Below are positions 9,552 to 17,435 of a stretch of DNA of 64,000 bases, one piece after another (the stretch's first letter is position 1; the number at the start of each line of letters is the position of its first letter). The notes beneath the pieces were generated by a model that was not told the origin of the DNA, did no database searches, and saw only the letters and a program-made list of their open reading frames with translations. The DNA is from Acidimicrobiales bacterium (GTDB taxonomy: Bacteria > Actinomycetota > Acidimicrobiia > Acidimicrobiales > JAHWLA01), in contig DATLNE010000031.1 of assembly GCA_035536915.1 (NCBI GenBank), positions 1 through 64,000 on the forward strand. The letters run 5' to 3'. The translations under genes and the position numbers were made by a program.

Positions 9552-11312
9552 ATGGCACTGAGACGCGCCGAGAAGGTCGCGCGCCCCGCCGCTGCTCCGG
9601 CAGCGATCGACGACGAGTTCCACGTCGACTCCGGCGGCCAACGTTTGGGCGAGCTGCTGGTGGCGCGCAACGTCGTCACCAAGACCCAGCTCATCGAGGC
9701 GTTGCTGCAGCAGTCGGCGTCGGGCAAGCGCATCGGCGCCCTGCTGGTGGAGCTGGGCGCCCTCGACGAGCGGGCGTTGGCCGAGCTGTTGGCCGAGCAG
9801 ATGGGCGTGCCGCTGGTCGACCTGCGCACCGACATCCCCGACCCCGAGGCCGTGAAGCGCCTGCCGGAGACGGTGGCCCGCAACGTCAACGCCGTTCCCA
9901 TCCGGGTCGACGGCGACGTCATCGAGATCGCCGTGGCCGATCCTTCCGACCACTTCGCCAAGCTGCTGTCCGACGCCGCCAACTCGGCTGTGCGGCTGTG
10001 CATCGCGCCGGCGTCCGACATCCGTTGGGCCGTCGACAACAGCTATCGAGCCCTGGCGGGCGTCGACGAGCAGATCCAGGCCTTCGAAGCCACCGACTCA
10101 CTGCGCCGGGCCGCCGCGCCCCTGGAGTTCCAGCAGTCGTTGGCGGGCGACGACGCCCCCGTGGTCAAGGTCGTGAACCTCATGATCACGCAGGGCTTGC
10201 GCGACCGGGCGTCCGACATCCACATCGAGCCGCAGGACCGGCGGGTGCGCATCCGTTACCGCATCGACGGGGCGCTGCACGACGTGTTGGCCCTGCCCGC
10301 CAACATCGGCCCGGCGCTGGTCAGCCGCATCAAGATCATGGCGGGCATGAACATCGTGGAGAAGCGACGCTCCCAGGACGGCCAGATCGCCATGGACGTC
10401 GACGGTCGCGACCTCGACATCCGGGTGTCGACCACGGCCACCATCTGGGGCGAAAAGGCCGTGCTGCGCCTGCTCGACAAGAGCCGCACCCTCTACCGGG
10501 TGCAGGACCTCGGCATGCCCGACGACACGGCCGACACCTACAGCAAGCTGGTGCACTCGCCGTTCGGCATGGTGGTGTGCAGCGGCCCCACCGGCAGCGG
10601 CAAGACCACGACGCTCTACGCGACGTTGGCCGAGATCAACGACCCGCGGAAGAACATCGTCACCATCGAGGACCCCGTCGAGTACGTGTTCCCGTCGATC
10701 AACCAAATCCAGATCAACGAGCAGGCGGGCATCACCTTCGCGGGCGGGCTGCGCTCGATCCTGCGCCAGGACCCCGACATCATCCTGGTGGGCGAGATGC
10801 GCGACGTGGAGACGGCGCGCATCGCCGTGCAGTCGGCCTTGACCGGGCACTTCGTGCTGTCGTCGATCCACGCCACCGATGCGTCTGCGGCGTTGCACCG
10901 CTTCATCGACATGGGCATCGAGCCGTTCCTGATCTCGTCGTCGCTGCGGGCCATCGTGGGCCAGCGGCTGCTGCGCCGCATCTGCACGTCGTGCGCGGTG
11001 GAGGCAACGCCGACGGCCGAAGAGCTCGCCTTCTACGAGGCGTCGGGCGGCACGGCCAAGAAGCGCTTCTGGCGCGGCGAAGGCTGCAACTTCTGCGCCA
11101 AGACGGGCTACCTCGACCGCATCGGGGTCTACGAGTTGCTGCGGGTCACCGAACGCATGAAGTCGCTGGTGCTGGCGGGGGCAGGCCACGACCAGATCCG
11201 CGGCCTGGCTATCGAGGAAGGCATGCGCACGCTGCGCCAAGAGGCCATCCGACTGGTGGAGGAGGACGTCACCACCGTCGACGAGGTCATGCGCACCGTC
11301 TACACCCTGTGA
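9552..11312 (+). CDS. pilB: Type IV pilus assembly/extension ATPase PilB with MshEN domain
   Basis: A protein of 586 aa. The N-terminal MshEN region (about residues 30-110) holds two copies of the RLGxLL...LxxxLxxQ motif (RLGELLVARNVVTKTQLIEA and RIGALLVELGALDERALAEL), known in other bacteria to bind c-di-GMP. The GspE/PilB ATPase core follows, with Walker A GPTGSGKTTT near 345, Walker B IILVGEMRD near 410 and a C-terminal zinc-binding pair of CxxC motifs (CTSC near 477, CNFC near 513). It powers pilin polymerisation at the inner face of the membrane. It is first of the pilus gene block; pilC follows after 55 nt. Confidence 0.95.
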   Translation: MALRRAEKVARPAAAPAAIDDEFHVDSGGQRLGELLVARNVVTKTQLIEALLQQSASGKRIGALLVELGALDERALAELLAEQMGVPLVDLRTDIPDPEAVKRLPETVARNVNAVPIRVDGDVIEIAVADPSDHFAKLLSDAANSAVRLCIAPASDIRWAVDNSYRALAGVDEQIQAFEATDSLRRAAAPLEFQQSLAGDDAPVVKVVNLMITQGLRDRASDIHIEPQDRRVRIRYRIDGALHDVLALPANIGPALVSRIKIMAGMNIVEKRRSQDGQIAMDVDGRDLDIRVSTTATIWGEKAVLRLLDKSRTLYRVQDLGMPDDTADTYSKLVHSPFGMVVCSGPTGSGKTTTLYATLAEINDPRKNIVTIEDPVEYVFPSINQIQINEQAGITFAGGLRSILRQDPDIILVGEMRDVETARIAVQSALTGHFVLSSIHATDASAALHRFIDMGIEPFLISSSLRAIVGQRLLRRICTSCAVEATPTAEELAFYEASGGTAKKRFWRGEGCNFCAKTGYLDRIGVYELLRVTERMKSLVLAGAGHDQIRGLAIEEGMRTLRQEAIRLVEEDVTTVDEVMRTVYTL

Positions 11313-11314
11313 TT

Positions 11315-11358
11315 CATCAATATTGGGGAGTTCGCCCCGGCGGGCTCGGTCGTACGGT
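11315..11358 (+). promoter_or_regulatory. Candidate pil promoter: CATCAAT box and -10 upstream of pilC
   Basis: CATCAATATTGGGG (11315-11328) shares its first seven bases with the CATCAATTCTGATG palindromes upstream of pilA and pilT. TACGGT (11353-11358) lies 38 nt after the start of the box, the same offset as ACACT-type sequences in the other two, and 10 nt before the ATG. This copy is a half-site. Promoter function is inferred. Confidence 0.45.
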
Positions 11359-11367
11359 TCGGATGGG

Positions 11368-12579
11368 ATGACCAAGTTCAAGTACGAAGCCACGCGCGAC
11401 GACGGCACCGTCGTCACCGGTGTCGTGAAGTCCGACACCATCGGCGGCGCGCGCAACGCCCTGCTGGGCAAGGGCCTCGACGCCGACACGCTGGAAGAGA
11501 AGCACTCGAAGCTCAACATCGAGATCACCAAGGAACGGGTGCCCCGGGCCGAGCTGATGCACCTTTCGCGTCAGTTGGCAGCATTCCTTCGGGCGGGCAT
11601 CCCCATCCTCGAAGCCATCGAGGTGCTGCGCGACGGCGCCCCCAACCGCACCCTGCGGCGCGTGCTCGGCGACATCGGCGAGTCGTTGCGTGGCGGGTCG
11701 ACCTTCCTGGCCGCCATCGGTGAGCACCCCGAGGTCTTCCCCGACTTCTACCGGGGCATGATCGGCGCCGCCGAGCTCACCGGCCAACTCGACTCCGTGC
11801 TCGACCAGCTCTCCCACTACATCGAGCGCGACCTGGAGGCCCGGCGCAAGATCAAGTCGGCCCTCGCTTATCCCATCGTCATCTTCGTGATGTCGATCGT
11901 GACGGTGGCCATCCTGACCGTGTTCGTGCTGCCTCGCTTCAAGTCGTTCTTCGCCTCGCTCGACGCCGAGCTGCCGTTGCCGACGCGGATCATGCTGGCC
12001 GCCACCGACTTCCTCGGCGTGTGGTGGTGGGCGCTGGGTGCCGGGGCTGCCGCCGTCGTGCTCGCCGTGTTCCTCCATCGGCGCACGGCATCGGGCCGAG
12101 CCCGTTGGGACTCGTTGCTGCTGAAGGTACCGGTCATCGGCGAGACGGTCCGGTTCGCGGTGATCGAACGGTTCTGCCGAGTGATGGCGTCGATGGTGCG
12201 CGCCGGTGTCCCGTTGCCCGATGCCATGGTCGTGGCGGGCGACAGTGCCAACAACGCTGTCTTCCAGAAGGCGCTGGGCGGCGCGCGCGGCGCCATGATG
12301 CGCGGCGAAGGCATCGCCCGCCCCATCGCCGCTACCAACCTGTTCCCGATCGCTGCCGTGCAGATGTTCCGGGTGGGCGAGGACACCGGCTCCCTCGACG
12401 ACCAGTTGCAGTCGGCTGCCACCTACTTCGAACAGGAGCTCGACTACAAGGTCAAGCGGATGACGACGCTCTTCGAGCCCGCCGTGATCATCGTCATGGG
12501 CCTGGTGGTCGGCTTCGTCGCCATTGCCTGCGTCTCGGCGATGTACGGCATCTTCCGCCAGACGAGCAATCTGCGGTGA
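11368..12579 (+). CDS. pilC: Type IV pilus inner-membrane platform protein PilC
   Basis: A protein of 403 aa, the usual PilC/GspF size. An N-terminal T2SF_N-like segment (KFKYEATRDDGTVVTGVVKS) is followed by two T2SF domains (about 65-190 and 265-390) and three strong membrane segments: IVIFVMSIVTVAILTVFVLP, WWWALGAGAAAVVLAVFL and the C-terminal VIIVMGLVVGFVAIACVSAM. PilC anchors PilB/PilT at the membrane and passes their motion to the pilus fibre. ATG 11368 is chosen for its fit to the PilC N-terminus. The TGA overlaps the GTG of the next prepilin gene in a GTGA junction. Confidence 0.95.
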   Translation: MTKFKYEATRDDGTVVTGVVKSDTIGGARNALLGKGLDADTLEEKHSKLNIEITKERVPRAELMHLSRQLAAFLRAGIPILEAIEVLRDGAPNRTLRRVLGDIGESLRGGSTFLAAIGEHPEVFPDFYRGMIGAAELTGQLDSVLDQLSHYIERDLEARRKIKSALAYPIVIFVMSIVTVAILTVFVLPRFKSFFASLDAELPLPTRIMLAATDFLGVWWWALGAGAAAVVLAVFLHRRTASGRARWDSLLLKVPVIGETVRFAVIERFCRVMASMVRAGVPLPDAMVVAGDSANNAVFQKALGGARGAMMRGEGIARPIAATNLFPIAAVQMFRVGEDTGSLDDQLQSAATYFEQELDYKVKRMTTLFEPAVIIVMGLVVGFVAIACVSAMYGIFRQTSNLR

Positions 12580-12974
12580 TTCGCGCCGCGCGCGACGAGA
12601 GCGGGCTCACCCTCGTCGAGGTGCTCGTCACGGTCATGATCATGGGCATCGCCTTCACCGTCCTCCTCGGCGGCATGGGCACCTCCGTGCTCTCCTCGGG
12701 CTTGCACGAGAAGCAGGCCAAGGTGGAAGTCGAGGTCCGCAGGTTCGCGGAGCTGGTGAAGCAGCGTCCCTACGAGGCGAGCGGCACCTACGCCGGCGCG
12801 TACACGGCGCCCGCCGGGTTCAGTGCGTCGATGCCTACGCCCGCCGTCTGCAGGAACGGACAGGGGCACGTGGCGCCGTGCGACGAGCCCAAGGTCGTCC
12901 AACTGCTGACGTTGTCGGTGGCGTCCGACGGGGGCGACGTCACAGAGACCGTCGAAGTGTCGAAGCGCTCATGA
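12576..12974 (+). CDS. Prepilin-like protein (minor pilin, PilV/GspI type)
   Basis: A protein of 132 aa. A short basic leader (VIRAARDESG) is followed by a class III signal: cleavage after Gly, then LTLVEVLVTVMIMGIAFTVL with Glu at position +5 of the mature protein, as prepilin peptidase substrates require. The short globular domain holds a Cys pair (PAVCRNGQGHVAPCDE) that could form a disulphide loop. It is probably a minor pilin that primes or caps the fibre. It is translationally coupled to pilC upstream (GTGA) and to the next prepilin gene (ATGA). Confidence 0.8.
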   Translation: MIRAARDESGLTLVEVLVTVMIMGIAFTVLLGGMGTSVLSSGLHEKQAKVEVEVRRFAELVKQRPYEASGTYAGAYTAPAGFSASMPTPAVCRNGQGHVAPCDEPKVVQLLTLSVASDGGDVTETVEVSKRS

Positions 12975-13564
12975 CGCGGACCGACGACGGGTTCACGCTG
13001 ATCGAGCTCCTCATTGCGGTGACGCTGAGCACGATGCTGGTGGCTGCCCTCGGCATGGGCGTGTTCACCTACATCCGCACGGCCGACGCCACCGCCAACC
13101 GTCTGGGCGAGACGCCCCAGTTCCAGGTGGCCGCCACTCGGTTCGCGGCCGACGTGCAACGAGCATCCAGCGTGCAGTTGACGGACCCGGCGGCATGCTC
13201 GGTCCCTGCGGGGTCGACGTTGGTGGTCGGCTTCTCGGCCAGCGAGGCGGGCAGTGACCTGGCCTCCGTCGCCGACGATGTCTTCGTCGGAGTGTCGTAC
13301 TCGTACCGCACGGTGGCGACGTCCACTCAGAAGCAGTTCGTTCTCGAACGATCGGAATGCCGGGGCTCGTCGACGCCCGTGGCGACGATGTCGTTCGTGA
13401 ACTCCGGGAACCCGGCGTTCGTGCCCACGGCTACGTGCGGCCCGACCGGGTGCGGCGCCCTCGCCACCGTCAGCCTGCCGCTGCACATCTGCACTGCCAA
13501 CGCCGACGGCACCTGTCGGGACGGTGACGTCACCGCCACGCTCACCGGCGCCAGGCGGTTCTGA
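12971..13564 (+). CDS. Prepilin-like protein (minor pilin, PilW/GspJ type)
   Basis: A protein of 197 aa. The leader MTRTDDG is followed by FTLIELLIAVTLSTMLVAAL, an exact type III signal with Glu at +5. The mature domain has several Cys residues (AACSVP, SECRGS, TCGPTGCG, ICTANADGTC), suggesting disulphides in an exported pilin-like protein. Class is judged from operon position and leader; PilW-like is the best guess. It overlaps the preceding minor pilin by 4 nt, and the PilX-like gene begins 1 nt after its stop. Confidence 0.8.
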   Translation: MTRTDDGFTLIELLIAVTLSTMLVAALGMGVFTYIRTADATANRLGETPQFQVAATRFAADVQRASSVQLTDPAACSVPAGSTLVVGFSASEAGSDLASVADDVFVGVSYSYRTVATSTQKQFVLERSECRGSSTPVATMSFVNSGNPAFVPTATCGPTGCGALATVSLPLHICTANADGTCRDGDVTATLTGARRF

Positions 13565-13565
13565 C

Positions 13566-15593
13566 ATGGCTCGGGTACAGCGAGACGAAGAAGGCTCGTC
13601 GCTGATCTTGGCGTTGATCTTCCTCAGCGTCATGTCGATCGTGGTTGCATCGACGCTCGGGTTGGCAGACGTCGACTTCCGTCACACGGTTGCTGTGCGC
13701 GACGACCGCAAGCTCGTCTACGCGGCCGACGCCGCGCTCGACGCCGCCATCAACTCCTACTGGTCGACCGGCACCTGCGCAACGCCGGAGCGCGGCGTGG
13801 TCCAAGAGGTCAACGACGTCACCCCCGCGGTGTCGTGCGAAACGAGCGGGGGCGGCACAGCGGTGACGCCGTTGAACCAACCTGCTCTTGCCGTCAGCGC
13901 GCAGGCCGTGGCGCCCGAGGTCGGCATCAACATCGTCGGCGGTGCTGTTGCCTCTGTTCGTGGTGGCGTGTACTCCAACACCGGGATCAACACCACGAGC
14001 GGCGCCAACCTCTACGCGGCATCGCCCGATCGCATCGTGACCCGGCTCGGCTGCACCGGGGGAGGAACTGTCGGCCCGGCGGCGTGCGAGACCGTCACGG
14101 GTCCGTACGTGCCGGGCAACGACCCGGGGTACCCGACGGCGGTTGCGTCTGCTCCGCCCTTCGCGTCGGTGCCGTCGTGCCCGGCGACGGAACCGGTCAC
14201 CTTCGCACCGGGTACCTACACCGATCGCCTGGCCTTGGAGGCGTTCATGGCGACCTGCGCCCGGCGCACCTACCACTTCCCGGCCGCAGGCGGCATCGGC
14301 AGTCCCGGCGTCTACTACTTCGACTTCACCGACGACGGGGCGTGGACGATCCCGCAGGGCTACACCGTCGTCGGCGGCACCTTCCCCAGCGGGGTCACGG
14401 GCGCGACGGTGGGCGCTGTCGAGACACTCCCGGGTGGACGGTGCGACCAGGACGCCGAGGGCGTGCAGTGGCTGTTCGGGGGTGGCAGCCGGGTCGTCGT
14501 CAAAGGCGCCCTCGAGCTGTGCGCGCCCCACAGCGACCCGACCAGCTCGACACCGCGCGTCGCCGTCTACGGCGTCCGCACGACCGACTCACCGCCCGCG
14601 GCACCGACGCCGCAGACTCTGGCCGTGAACGCCACCACTGCGGCGGCGGGCTCCCCGTTCACACCGTCGTCCGGGGCGTACATGCCCAACGACGGCTCCA
14701 TGGCCGTGGCCACCGTCCCCGACAAACAGATGTCAGCGATCTCGGTGGCCGGGTTCAACGTCTCCTCGATCCCCGACACGGCGGTGATCACCAGCGCCAC
14801 CATCACCGTTCGTCATGTGGAGAACGAGTCACCGCCTCCGACTCGCGGGCAGCCCAACTTGGCAAAACTCGATCTGCAAGCGACGGCGATGTCGGGCGCG
14901 CTGACGTCGACCGTGCAGACGAGCTCGTGCGGCAACGCCCCCAACTGCACGACGACCCTGAACAAGTCCACCGACCCGCGCGACGACGTGCTGACGCTGC
15001 CCGCGTCATTCCGCACCAAGGCAGGCCTGGCGGCCATGAACGTCGCCTACAAGGCGACGTCGACCGGCGGGGCGTTCTCGGCGTCGCTCGACGGCGTCAG
15101 CTTGGCGGTGACGTACACGCCGGTGGTCGCCGCCGTGCCCCGCTTCCGGGCGGAGAGCGGGTGCATCACGAAAGCGCCCTACGACCCGCCCACGGGCGAC
15201 CCGTCGCTGCCGATCGCCGCCACCAGCCCGTGTGCGCTCATCACGACCGCAGGAAGCAACGCGTCGCTTGCCGTGAAAGGCACGATCTACGCGCCTGCCG
15301 CAGCACTCGACATCCAACTGGTGGGCACGTCGTACCAGGTGTTCGGGCGCGGCCTTGTCGTGCGTTCGTTGCGCAGCAACATCACGTCGTCGGTCGGCGC
15401 GTGCAACGCGGTACCGCCGCCCGACGAGGACCGGTGCTACCCGTTCCAACTCCCGAGGGGTGTGGTGTCGGCGGCCGAGCGCGTGCTGTTCACGGTGAAG
15501 GTGGCGGGCGTGACCCGGCTGCGGTCGTTGGTGCGCTTCAACGGCGCGGCGGCGCCGACGGTGCAGTCGTGGAACGTGGTCAACGAGCCCTGA
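13566..15593 (+). CDS. Large PilX-like pilus-associated protein
   Basis: A protein of 675 aa. The N-terminus RDEEGSSLILALIFLSVMSI is a PilX-type membrane start (Gly-Ser-Ser, no Glu at +5), and a following ALDAAINSYW resembles the N-terminal helix of PilX proteins. The long exported remainder is Thr/Ser/Pro-rich with many paired cysteines (for example LGCTGGGTVGPAACETV and APNCTTTLN). It is far longer than ordinary PilX (about 150-200 aa), so it may be a tip or adhesin-like subunit, as long minor pilins can be (inference). The extra domain from about residue 350 (IPDTAVITSATITVRHVENE) looks like a beta-rich fold. Confidence 0.75.
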   Translation: MARVQRDEEGSSLILALIFLSVMSIVVASTLGLADVDFRHTVAVRDDRKLVYAADAALDAAINSYWSTGTCATPERGVVQEVNDVTPAVSCETSGGGTAVTPLNQPALAVSAQAVAPEVGINIVGGAVASVRGGVYSNTGINTTSGANLYAASPDRIVTRLGCTGGGTVGPAACETVTGPYVPGNDPGYPTAVASAPPFASVPSCPATEPVTFAPGTYTDRLALEAFMATCARRTYHFPAAGGIGSPGVYYFDFTDDGAWTIPQGYTVVGGTFPSGVTGATVGAVETLPGGRCDQDAEGVQWLFGGGSRVVVKGALELCAPHSDPTSSTPRVAVYGVRTTDSPPAAPTPQTLAVNATTAAAGSPFTPSSGAYMPNDGSMAVATVPDKQMSAISVAGFNVSSIPDTAVITSATITVRHVENESPPPTRGQPNLAKLDLQATAMSGALTSTVQTSSCGNAPNCTTTLNKSTDPRDDVLTLPASFRTKAGLAAMNVAYKATSTGGAFSASLDGVSLAVTYTPVVAAVPRFRAESGCITKAPYDPPTGDPSLPIAATSPCALITTAGSNASLAVKGTIYAPAAALDIQLVGTSYQVFGRGLVVRSLRSNITSSVGACNAVPPPDEDRCYPFQLPRGVVSAAERVLFTVKVAGVTRLRSLVRFNGAAAPTVQSWNVVNEP

Positions 15594-15597
15594 AAAC

Positions 15598-15641
15598 CAT
15601 CAATTCTGATGACGCCTCGGGCACCGCGGGCGTCGCACACT
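15598..15641 (+). promoter_or_regulatory. Candidate pil promoter upstream of pilA
   Basis: CATCAATTCTGATG (15598-15611) is an inverted repeat (CATCA-N4-TGATG) identical in all 14 bases to the one upstream of pilT. CACACT (15636-15641) lies 38 nt after the box start and is a candidate -10, placing transcription start near the 15645-15675 hairpin. Function is inferred from recurrence and spacing. Confidence 0.55.
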
Positions 15642-15644
15642 CGT

Positions 15645-15675
15645 AGGAGAGCAGGGGAACTTGGTCCCCTCTCCT
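15645..15675 (+). promoter_or_regulatory. Hairpin at the predicted 5' end of the pilA mRNA
   Basis: AGGAGA (15645-15650) pairs with TCTCCT (15670-15675), and GGGGA (15654-15658) pairs with TCCCC (15665-15669), giving an 11-bp stem with a 3-nt bulge. It lies in the 110-nt leader before pilA and, if the proposed promoter is right, at the very 5' end of the transcript, where stems often protect mRNA. It contains an AGGAG that would be masked. Confidence 0.5.
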
Positions 15676-15703
15676 CGGAAGGCTCTCGGAAAGGGACCAC
15701 GCA

Positions 15704-16132
15704 ATGATCGAGCAGATTCGCAAGCGTCGCGGTGATGACGGTTTCACCCTGGTGGAACTTCTCATCGTGATCGTCATCCTCGGCATTCTCGCCGCCATCG
15801 TCGTCTTCGCCGTGGGTTCCACCCGCAAGGACTCCGTTGTCAGCTCCTGCACCACGAACCAGAAGTCGGTCGAGCTGTCGGCGGAGGCGGTCAAGGTGAA
15901 GAGCGGCAAGTACCCGCTGACCGCAACCGTCTGGGACGCAGCGGCGAAGGCTCCGGTGGGCGACTCCACCAATGCGCTCGTCGTCCCGCAGTCGGGCGCC
16001 CTGCTCAAGAGCTATCCGACCAGCAGCGACTACAAGCTGTCGTACACCTCGGCTGACGGTTCGGCCTTCTCGGTGGGCGTGCTCGACAAGGACGGCGTCG
16101 CCGTCTCGGCAGGTTGCAGCGGCCTCACCTAG
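15704..16132 (+). CDS. pilA: Type IV major pilin (PilA-like)
   Basis: A protein of 142 aa. The leader MIEQIRKRRGDDG is cut after Gly; the mature protein starts FTLVELLIVIVILGILAAIV, a textbook type IVa pilin N-terminus with Glu at +5 and a hydrophobic assembly helix. The globular domain has two Cys (VVSSCTTNQ and the C-terminal AGCSGLT), the usual pilin disulphide. GGAAAGGGA precedes the ATG as ribosome binding site. It has its own upstream box, a leader hairpin and a following terminator, consistent with a strongly expressed separate transcript. Confidence 0.92.
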   Translation: MIEQIRKRRGDDGFTLVELLIVIVILGILAAIVVFAVGSTRKDSVVSSCTTNQKSVELSAEAVKVKSGKYPLTATVWDAAAKAPVGDSTNALVVPQSGALLKSYPTSSDYKLSYTSADGSAFSVGVLDKDGVAVSAGCSGLT

Positions 16133-16159
16133 TTAAACAATTTCGGGGCGGGACACCCA

Positions 16160-16189
16160 CGAAGGGCTCGGCTGCGGCCGGGCCCTTCG
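16160..16189 (+). terminator. Terminator hairpin after pilA
   Basis: Arms 16160-16171 and 16178-16189 form a 12-bp stem with a single G-T wobble and a 6-nt loop. It lies 28 nt after the pilin stop and before the pilT promoter box. There is no long T run. Confidence 0.6.
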
Positions 16190-16282
16190 TCGCGTCTGAG
16201 GAGTTGCCCAGATAGGTCACCTCGCCACGCGCCGTAGGCACTGTGCTCATTGGTCGCCTCGCCTGTCGGCTGACTCCTGAAT

Positions 16283-16326
16283 CATCAATTCTGATGTACC
16301 GCCCGAACCTCCGAACCCGGACACTG
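16283..16326 (+). promoter_or_regulatory. Candidate pil promoter upstream of pilT
   Basis: CATCAATTCTGATG (16283-16296) matches the pilA box exactly, and the preceding TGAATCAT resembles TGATTCAT before pilC. GACACT (16320-16325) is a candidate -10 about 37 nt after the box start. It lies only 6 nt from the ATG at 16332, which suggests a leaderless mRNA. The box would be centred near -43, a usual activator position. Confidence 0.55.
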
Positions 16327-16331
16327 GTCCA

Positions 16332-17435
16332 ATGACCACGCGTGCGGCGGCCACCCTCGACAAGTACCTGGCCTACCTCTGGGACAACAGCGGCTCCGAC
16401 CTGTTGCTCACCGCGGGCGCACCGCCGCTGGCCCGAGTGGACGGCGCCCTGGCCCCCATCCCCGGCACCGAGCCGCTCGACGGCGCGACCATCGAGAAGC
16501 TGACGGCGGGCGTCATGCCCCAGGAGCACCACGAGCGTTTTCGCACCGGCAGGGAGGTCGACTTCTCCTTCAGTTGGGAGGGCAAGGCCCGCTTCCGGGC
16601 CAACGCCTTCCACCAGCGCCGCACGGTGGCGCTGGCCGTCCGCCTCATCCCCTTCGCCATCCCCAGCTTCGAAGAGCTCGGCCTGCCCGCCGTCGCCGAG
16701 CGCCTGGTGAACCTGCAGCAGGGCCTGGTGCTCGTCACCGGTCCCACCGGCGCGGGCAAGTCGACCACCTTGGCCGCCATGCTCGACTGGATCAACGAGC
16801 ACCGCCAGTGCCACATCCTCACCATCGAAGACCCCATCGAATACGTGCACAGCCACAAGCGCTCGGCCGTCAACCAGCGAGAGGTGGGCGACGACACCGA
16901 CTCGTTCGAGCGGGCCCTGCGCAGCGCCCTGCGGGAAGACCCCGACGTCCTCCTGGTCGGCGAGATGCGCGACCTGGAGTCCATTCAGATCGCGCTCACG
17001 ATCGCCGAGACCGGCCACCTGGTGTTCGCCACCCTGCACACCAACGACACGGCCCAAGCGCTCGACCGCATCGTCGACGTCTTCCCCGGCGACCGCCAGG
17101 ACCAGATCCGGGTGCAGTTGGCCAACACCCTGGCCGCGGTCGTGCACCAGCGGCTCGTGCCCAAGAAGGACGGTGGCCGTGTCGCCGCCTTCGAGGTGCT
17201 CGTCGCCAACCACGCCATCCGCAACCTCGTGCGCGAAGGCAAGAGCCGCCAGATCCGCAACATGTTGGTGGCGGGCCAGAACGACGGCATGCAGACGCTG
17301 GAGATGTCGCTCAACGACCTCGTCGCCCGCGGGCTGGTCGATTACGAAGAGGCCCTCGGCCACGCCCTCGTCGCCAACGAGGTGCGCCGCCCGACGCCGC
17401 CTGCAGTCGTCCCCAACGGCAGCCGCCGCCGTTAA
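16332..17435 (+). CDS. pilT: Type IV pilus retraction ATPase PilT
   Basis: A protein of 367 aa, the usual PilT length. It has Walker A GPTGAGKSTTLAAM near residues 136-145, the Asp box TIEDPIEY, Walker B DVLLVGEMRD, and the PilT-specific His box HLVFATLHTND. No MshEN domain is present, unlike PilB. PilT depolymerises the fibre and drives twitching or DNA uptake. It is probably transcribed from its own promoter and ends tail-to-tail with a patatin gene (4-nt overlap of stops). No pilMNOPQ or prepilin peptidase is in the window; a secretin is not expected in a monoderm. Confidence 0.95.
   Translation: MTTRAAATLDKYLAYLWDNSGSDLLLTAGAPPLARVDGALAPIPGTEPLDGATIEKLTAGVMPQEHHERFRTGREVDFSFSWEGKARFRANAFHQRRTVALAVRLIPFAIPSFEELGLPAVAERLVNLQQGLVLVTGPTGAGKSTTLAAMLDWINEHRQCHILTIEDPIEYVHSHKRSAVNQREVGDDTDSFERALRSALREDPDVLLVGEMRDLESIQIALTIAETGHLVFATLHTNDTAQALDRIVDVFPGDRQDQIRVQLANTLAAVVHQRLVPKKDGGRVAAFEVLVANHAIRNLVREGKSRQIRNMLVAGQNDGMQTLEMSLNDLVARGLVDYEEALGHALVANEVRRPTPPAVVPNGSRRR

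Follow-up and report, generated by a model that had tools for sequence, protein, structure and literature searches.

A shared promoter box before pilC, pilA and pilT of an Acidimicrobiales bacterium and an orphan NarL-type response regulator as its candidate activator

The stretch analysed (64,000 nucleotides, hereafter the window) carries a run of pilus genes on its plus strand. The gene for PilB with its MshEN domain (positions 9552-11312) is followed by pilC, encoding the T2SSF-type pilus platform protein (11368-12579; PF00482, E = 1.8e-57), and by two overlapping prepilin-like genes spanning 12576-13564 (12576-12974 and 12971-13564, with starts inferred by eye). Between these minor pilins and pilA lies the gene for a 675-aa prepilin-like protein (13566-15593) that matched no Pfam or NCBIfam family. 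The pilA-type major pilin (15704-16132; PF07963 N_methyl, E = 5e-9) and the retraction ATPase PilT (16332-17435; PF00437, E = 2.9e-47) follow. When plasmids were searched with the pilA region, the matches were to the prepilin motif only. The genome holds five PilT-type genes, indicating several pilus or related systems.

The first-pass annotation had reported an identical 14-mer before pilA and pilT and a related CATCAAT site before pilC at 11315, and both were recovered by searching the window. The sequence CATCAATTCTGATG occurs at 15598-15611 and 16283-16296, and its close variant CATCAATATTGGGG at 11315-11328. Extended by two bases, the plus-strand boxes read TTCATCAATATTGGGG before pilC (11313-11328), ACCATCAATTCTGATG before pilA (15596-15611), which has perfect 5-bp arms, and ATCATCAATTCTGATG before pilT (16281-16296), with weight matrix (PWM) scores of 33.9, 37.1 and 39.0, respectively. 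Each is followed on the same strand by a hexamer resembling a -10 element: TACGGT for pilC (11353-11358; offset 39 from the box, 9 nt to the ATG), CACACT for pilA (15636-15641; offset 39) and GACACT for pilT (16320-16325; offset 38, 6 nt to the ATG). No PWM site was found upstream of the two overlapping prepilin-like genes, which are probably co-transcribed with pilC; the gene for the 675-aa protein is probably the end of the same unit. Within the window, matches to CATCAATTCTGATG at up to three mismatches were unremarkable in number (two, against 0.97 expected); what gives the box its weight is that the matches are exact, that they stand before genes, and the counts over the whole genome.

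The member set for the whole genome (3,225,851 bases, 3.23 Mb, approximately 70% GC) was drawn from pattern searches, with the PWM applied to chosen loci. With at most one mismatch to CATCAATTCTGATG, only the pilA and pilT sites were found; two mismatches added a single match, CATCGATCCTGATG on another contig, and the reversed control gave none. A looser form of the box, WTCATCAATNYTG, had four exact matches, at pilC, pilT, C15:6463 and C44:110901, and the pilA site fits it with one mismatch. The pattern WTCATCAANNNTGNNG also had four, at pilC, pilT, C44:110901 and C44:110226 (minus strand). All exact matches to either pattern precede genes, and together they form one small set. The site at C15:6465 lies upstream of a 907-aa open reading frame with a SpaA-type prealbumin-like domain, a surface protein. 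The site at C44:110903 lies a few bases past the stop codon of an orphan NarL/LuxR-type response regulator (RR; C44:110250-110894) and ahead of a gene for a 164-aa secreted protein. The sixth, on the minus strand of C44, separates the RR from a divergent 108-aa partner gene and stands 49 nt from its GTG start, the same distance as separates the pilT box and the ATG of pilT. The proposal of a pilus regulon site held for pilC, pilA and pilT, but the regulon extends beyond pili and the box is not pilus-specific, since it also precedes two secreted or surface protein genes and the RR partner gene.

The 164-aa secreted protein had no Pfam match and a BLASTP E value of 0.26 to a camelysin-like protein of the related genome G058, and a TasA-like identity for it is supported by neither search. 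Matches to CATCAA followed by ACNNT were mostly coding in appearance, and a site at C44:336363 that seemed promising at first had a low score. The other four PilT loci (C31:176263, C44:149768, C12:67942 and C3:33307; L099-L102) carried no box site by PWM.

Comparison of the members refined the description of the box. The symmetry CATCA-N4-TGATG holds for the pilA and pilT sites, but most members are imperfect, with a consensus of about AWTCATCAATNYTGRNGAT. From the weight matrix, the full element would be an inverted repeat of 18 bp, about ATCATCA-ATTC-TGATGAT, to which single sites fit imperfectly.

The distance from box to hexamer was then considered in 22 sites (five from this genome, 12 linked to RR homologues and five from the genome G038). 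The hexamers had been placed 37-38 nt after the box start counting from 0, which is 38-39 counting from 1, and at 38/39 an xAxxxT motif starts in 19 of the 22. The motif was found at the offset pairs 24-36 and 40-49 in zero of the 22 sites, and at 38/39 in one of 27 unrelated WTCATCAATNYTG matches from other genomes of the order. Only three sites were visible to the first-pass annotation, so the recurrence of the spacing in 14 of the 17 sites from other genomes is an independent test. The box-to-minus-10 spacing is far beyond chance. The PWM, built from the box plus the -10, scored its training sites at 27-40 and two held-out sites at 35.4 (L196) and 29.1 (RR partner gene); the best score in 384 kb of shuffled sequence was 14.4. 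Order-wide counts of a 16-mer at two mismatches and of WTCATCAATNYTG were uninformative, as genomes of lower GC give chance or coding matches; real and chance sites are told apart by the -10 spacing.

The box lies about 31 bp upstream of the -10 element, and no obvious -35 is present. With the hexamer starting at about -12, the centre of the box falls near -43. An operator that overlaps the -35 region and keeps a constant spacing to the -10 is the mark of an activator-dependent class II promoter, and the box promoters look to be of this type; a box near -43, typical for an activator, had been proposed in the annotation. Projected from the same spacing, the pilT start is predicted at its ATG, giving a leaderless message, and the pilC start about 3 nt before its ATG, giving a nearly leaderless one, both in line with the earlier suggestion; the pilA leader would be about 56 nt.

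The annotation had also noted that no regulator gene lies within the block. This stands, and a candidate, the RR at C44:110250-110894, is encoded elsewhere in the genome, unlinked to the pil cluster. Its receiver (PF00072, E = 3e-15) and GerE (PF00196, E = 1.1e-11) domains both exceed the gathering score, and its closest named or solved relatives include NarL, NarP, VraR and DevR. The combination of receiver and GerE domains with a palindromic site near -43 is that of NarL/FixJ regulators acting at class II-type promoters. The RR differs from the named members in falling below every NCBIfam equivalog cut-off (NarL, NarP, FimZ, MadR and others; best score 80 bits against a cut-off of 300), and literature searches found no description of its operator or targets.

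Homologues of the RR were gathered by protein sequence alone from other families of the order. A box matching at least 12 of 14 positions was present after the RR stop codon in nine of 32 downstream windows, compared to 10 of 749 control windows drawn from these loci (Fisher p about 7e-9) and 11 of 9600 shuffles. Boxes matching at all 14 positions were found in five of the 32 (one being the RR's own locus) and in none of the 749. At L195, an RR of 49% identity is followed by the identical CATCAATTCTGATG. The box CACCAATTCTGGTG at L133 has both arms changed together, CGGCAATCTTGCCG at L141 keeps the same spacing, and more divergent RRs pair with the co-changed arms CACCA/TGGTG and CGGCA/TGCCG. 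Box-bearing RRs are not one clade, and about half of the homologues had no recognisable adjacent box. A genome of the same genus (76% complete) contained no close orthologue of the RR or of the pil cluster. What the sequences show is the box itself, its fixed spacing to the -10 and its linkage to RR homologues.

The genes behind the box, for surface structures or regulators, differ from one genome to another. They encode a camelysin-like protein with a SipW-type signal peptidase in G058, a secreted protein with a signal-peptidase-like gene in G152, a TadE-like product in G114 and a TadZ/CpaE-like product in G277 (the last two by sequence reading only), a sigma-70-type factor in G049 and a second response regulator in G211 and G271. 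In G038, from another family, RR, box and pilB (MshEN) stand in a row. This pilB, whose homologue in the window has no box of its own, is the one exception to a general failure of the expectation that the box would be conserved before orthologous pil genes: about 20 relatives (PilT mostly 55-65% identical, generally without a close RR) had no box at their pil genes, and the box tracks the RR instead. The same G038 genome has five regulator copies and at least six boxes (L130, L144-L147; L150, L153-L156). Four of its five further sites have a -10-like element at 38/39; one site, at L154, lies before a regulator-partner-like gene and is without such an element.

We consider it probable that the box serves as operator for an activator, most likely the RR, that drives the small surface-gene regulon. 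A dimer of the activator bound near -43 would recruit RNA polymerase to promoters with weak -10 elements (xAxxxT). The RR would thereby activate pilC and its downstream genes, pilA and pilT. Its further targets would be the genes for the SpaA-like surface protein and the small secreted protein, together with the divergent partner gene of the RR itself; homologous RRs in other families would drive the adjacent surface-filament or surface-protein genes. We infer that the RR binds the box and that it activates and does not repress, and likewise infer the start sites and an inducing signal.

It is also conceivable, if unlikely, that an activator does act at the box but is a different DNA-binding protein, with the RR gene simply adjoining the site. 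The box follows the RR rather than preceding it, a box is missing near some RR homologues, and the genome contains many LuxR-type regulators (56 candidates at first look), so that a paralogue could be the binder. Against this, the RR stays constant while the gene behind the box changes (pilB, TadE, CpaE-like, camelysin, sigma factor, second RR), which makes the RR the likely binder; the divergent partner promoter bears a box too, and the box arms co-change with divergent RRs.

A repressor operator appears very unlikely. Palindromic operators near promoters can repress, and some NarL-family members also do so, but from known promoter types an upstream box fixed 31 bp before a -10 with no evident -35 would fit activation. 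Extremely unlikely is control by a sigma factor switch of WhiG type. In Rubrobacter, WhiG with its c-di-GMP-dependent anti-sigma factor RsiG directs the pil promoters of type IV pili, and RsiG has been reported from Acidimicrobiales (PMC8325347). In both systems several actinobacterial pil units share one promoter signal and c-di-GMP is involved, but the Rubrobacter signal is a sigma-factor promoter (TAAA and GCCGATAA), whereas here it is an activator box; the consensus TAAA-N14-16-GCCGATAA was absent before pilC, pilA and pilT even with as many as three mismatches allowed in total, and a box about 31 bp before the -10 is too distant for a sigma -35. Chance likeness of AT-rich spots in a genome of 70% GC, suggested by the expected number of loose matches in the window and by relatives' pil genes without a box, has a negligible probability, given how rare the box is in the whole genome, that it lies just before genes, and that its spacing to the -10 is constant in several families.

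Two features may link the preferred regulon, with the RR as activator, to c-di-GMP: riboswitch leaders and the MshEN domain of PilB. Aptamers of the c-di-GMP-II-GAG class (RF03169) scored above the Rfam gathering score in the leader on C44 of this genome (L106:1573-1656; 55.6 bits against a threshold of 40) and in leaders of G058, G135 and G152; these RR-linked box leaders are at loci L106, L132, L141 and L200. The leader on C15 (L103:1546-1626) matched the c-di-GMP-II-GCG class (RF03170) at 42.4 bits, below the threshold of 47.9, with E = 1.1e-6 in a 221-base search. Box promoters thus lead into c-di-GMP-II aptamers at two of the six sites in this genome and at three in relatives, one of the matches being sub-threshold. 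No c-di-GMP-II aptamer was found in the window, pil promoters included; the riboswitches are on the surface-protein transcripts of the regulon and not at the pil promoters of the window.

On balance, we favour a reading in which this regulon extends across many families of the order, with an orphan NarL-type RR driving the surface filament of each lineage through one promoter design, and with c-di-GMP-II riboswitches and the PilB MshEN domain providing a second, c-di-GMP-dependent layer. The filaments would include type IV pili, Tad pili, camelysin/SipW fibres and SpaA-like proteins, and in some genomes the RR would stand beside a small pseudo-receiver-like protein. Little is known about how this part of the Actinobacteria controls its pili and surface filaments, and the sigma-factor case of Rubrobacter was the only one that full-text searches brought up. 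The analysis yields a concrete operator sequence, a promoter architecture, a candidate regulator and a small regulon that could be tested in vitro or in cultivated relatives, and predicts both leaderless pil messages and a response regulator joined with c-di-GMP sensing at surface structures.

The small proteins encoded divergently from the RR (L157:8865-9191 and L161:9895-10242) appeared receiver-like by eye and matched no family. Just before pilT, four relatives (L004, L005, L006 and L008) share another conserved stretch, about TCAACCGTTCGGACACAC, which is perhaps their own pil promoter signal.
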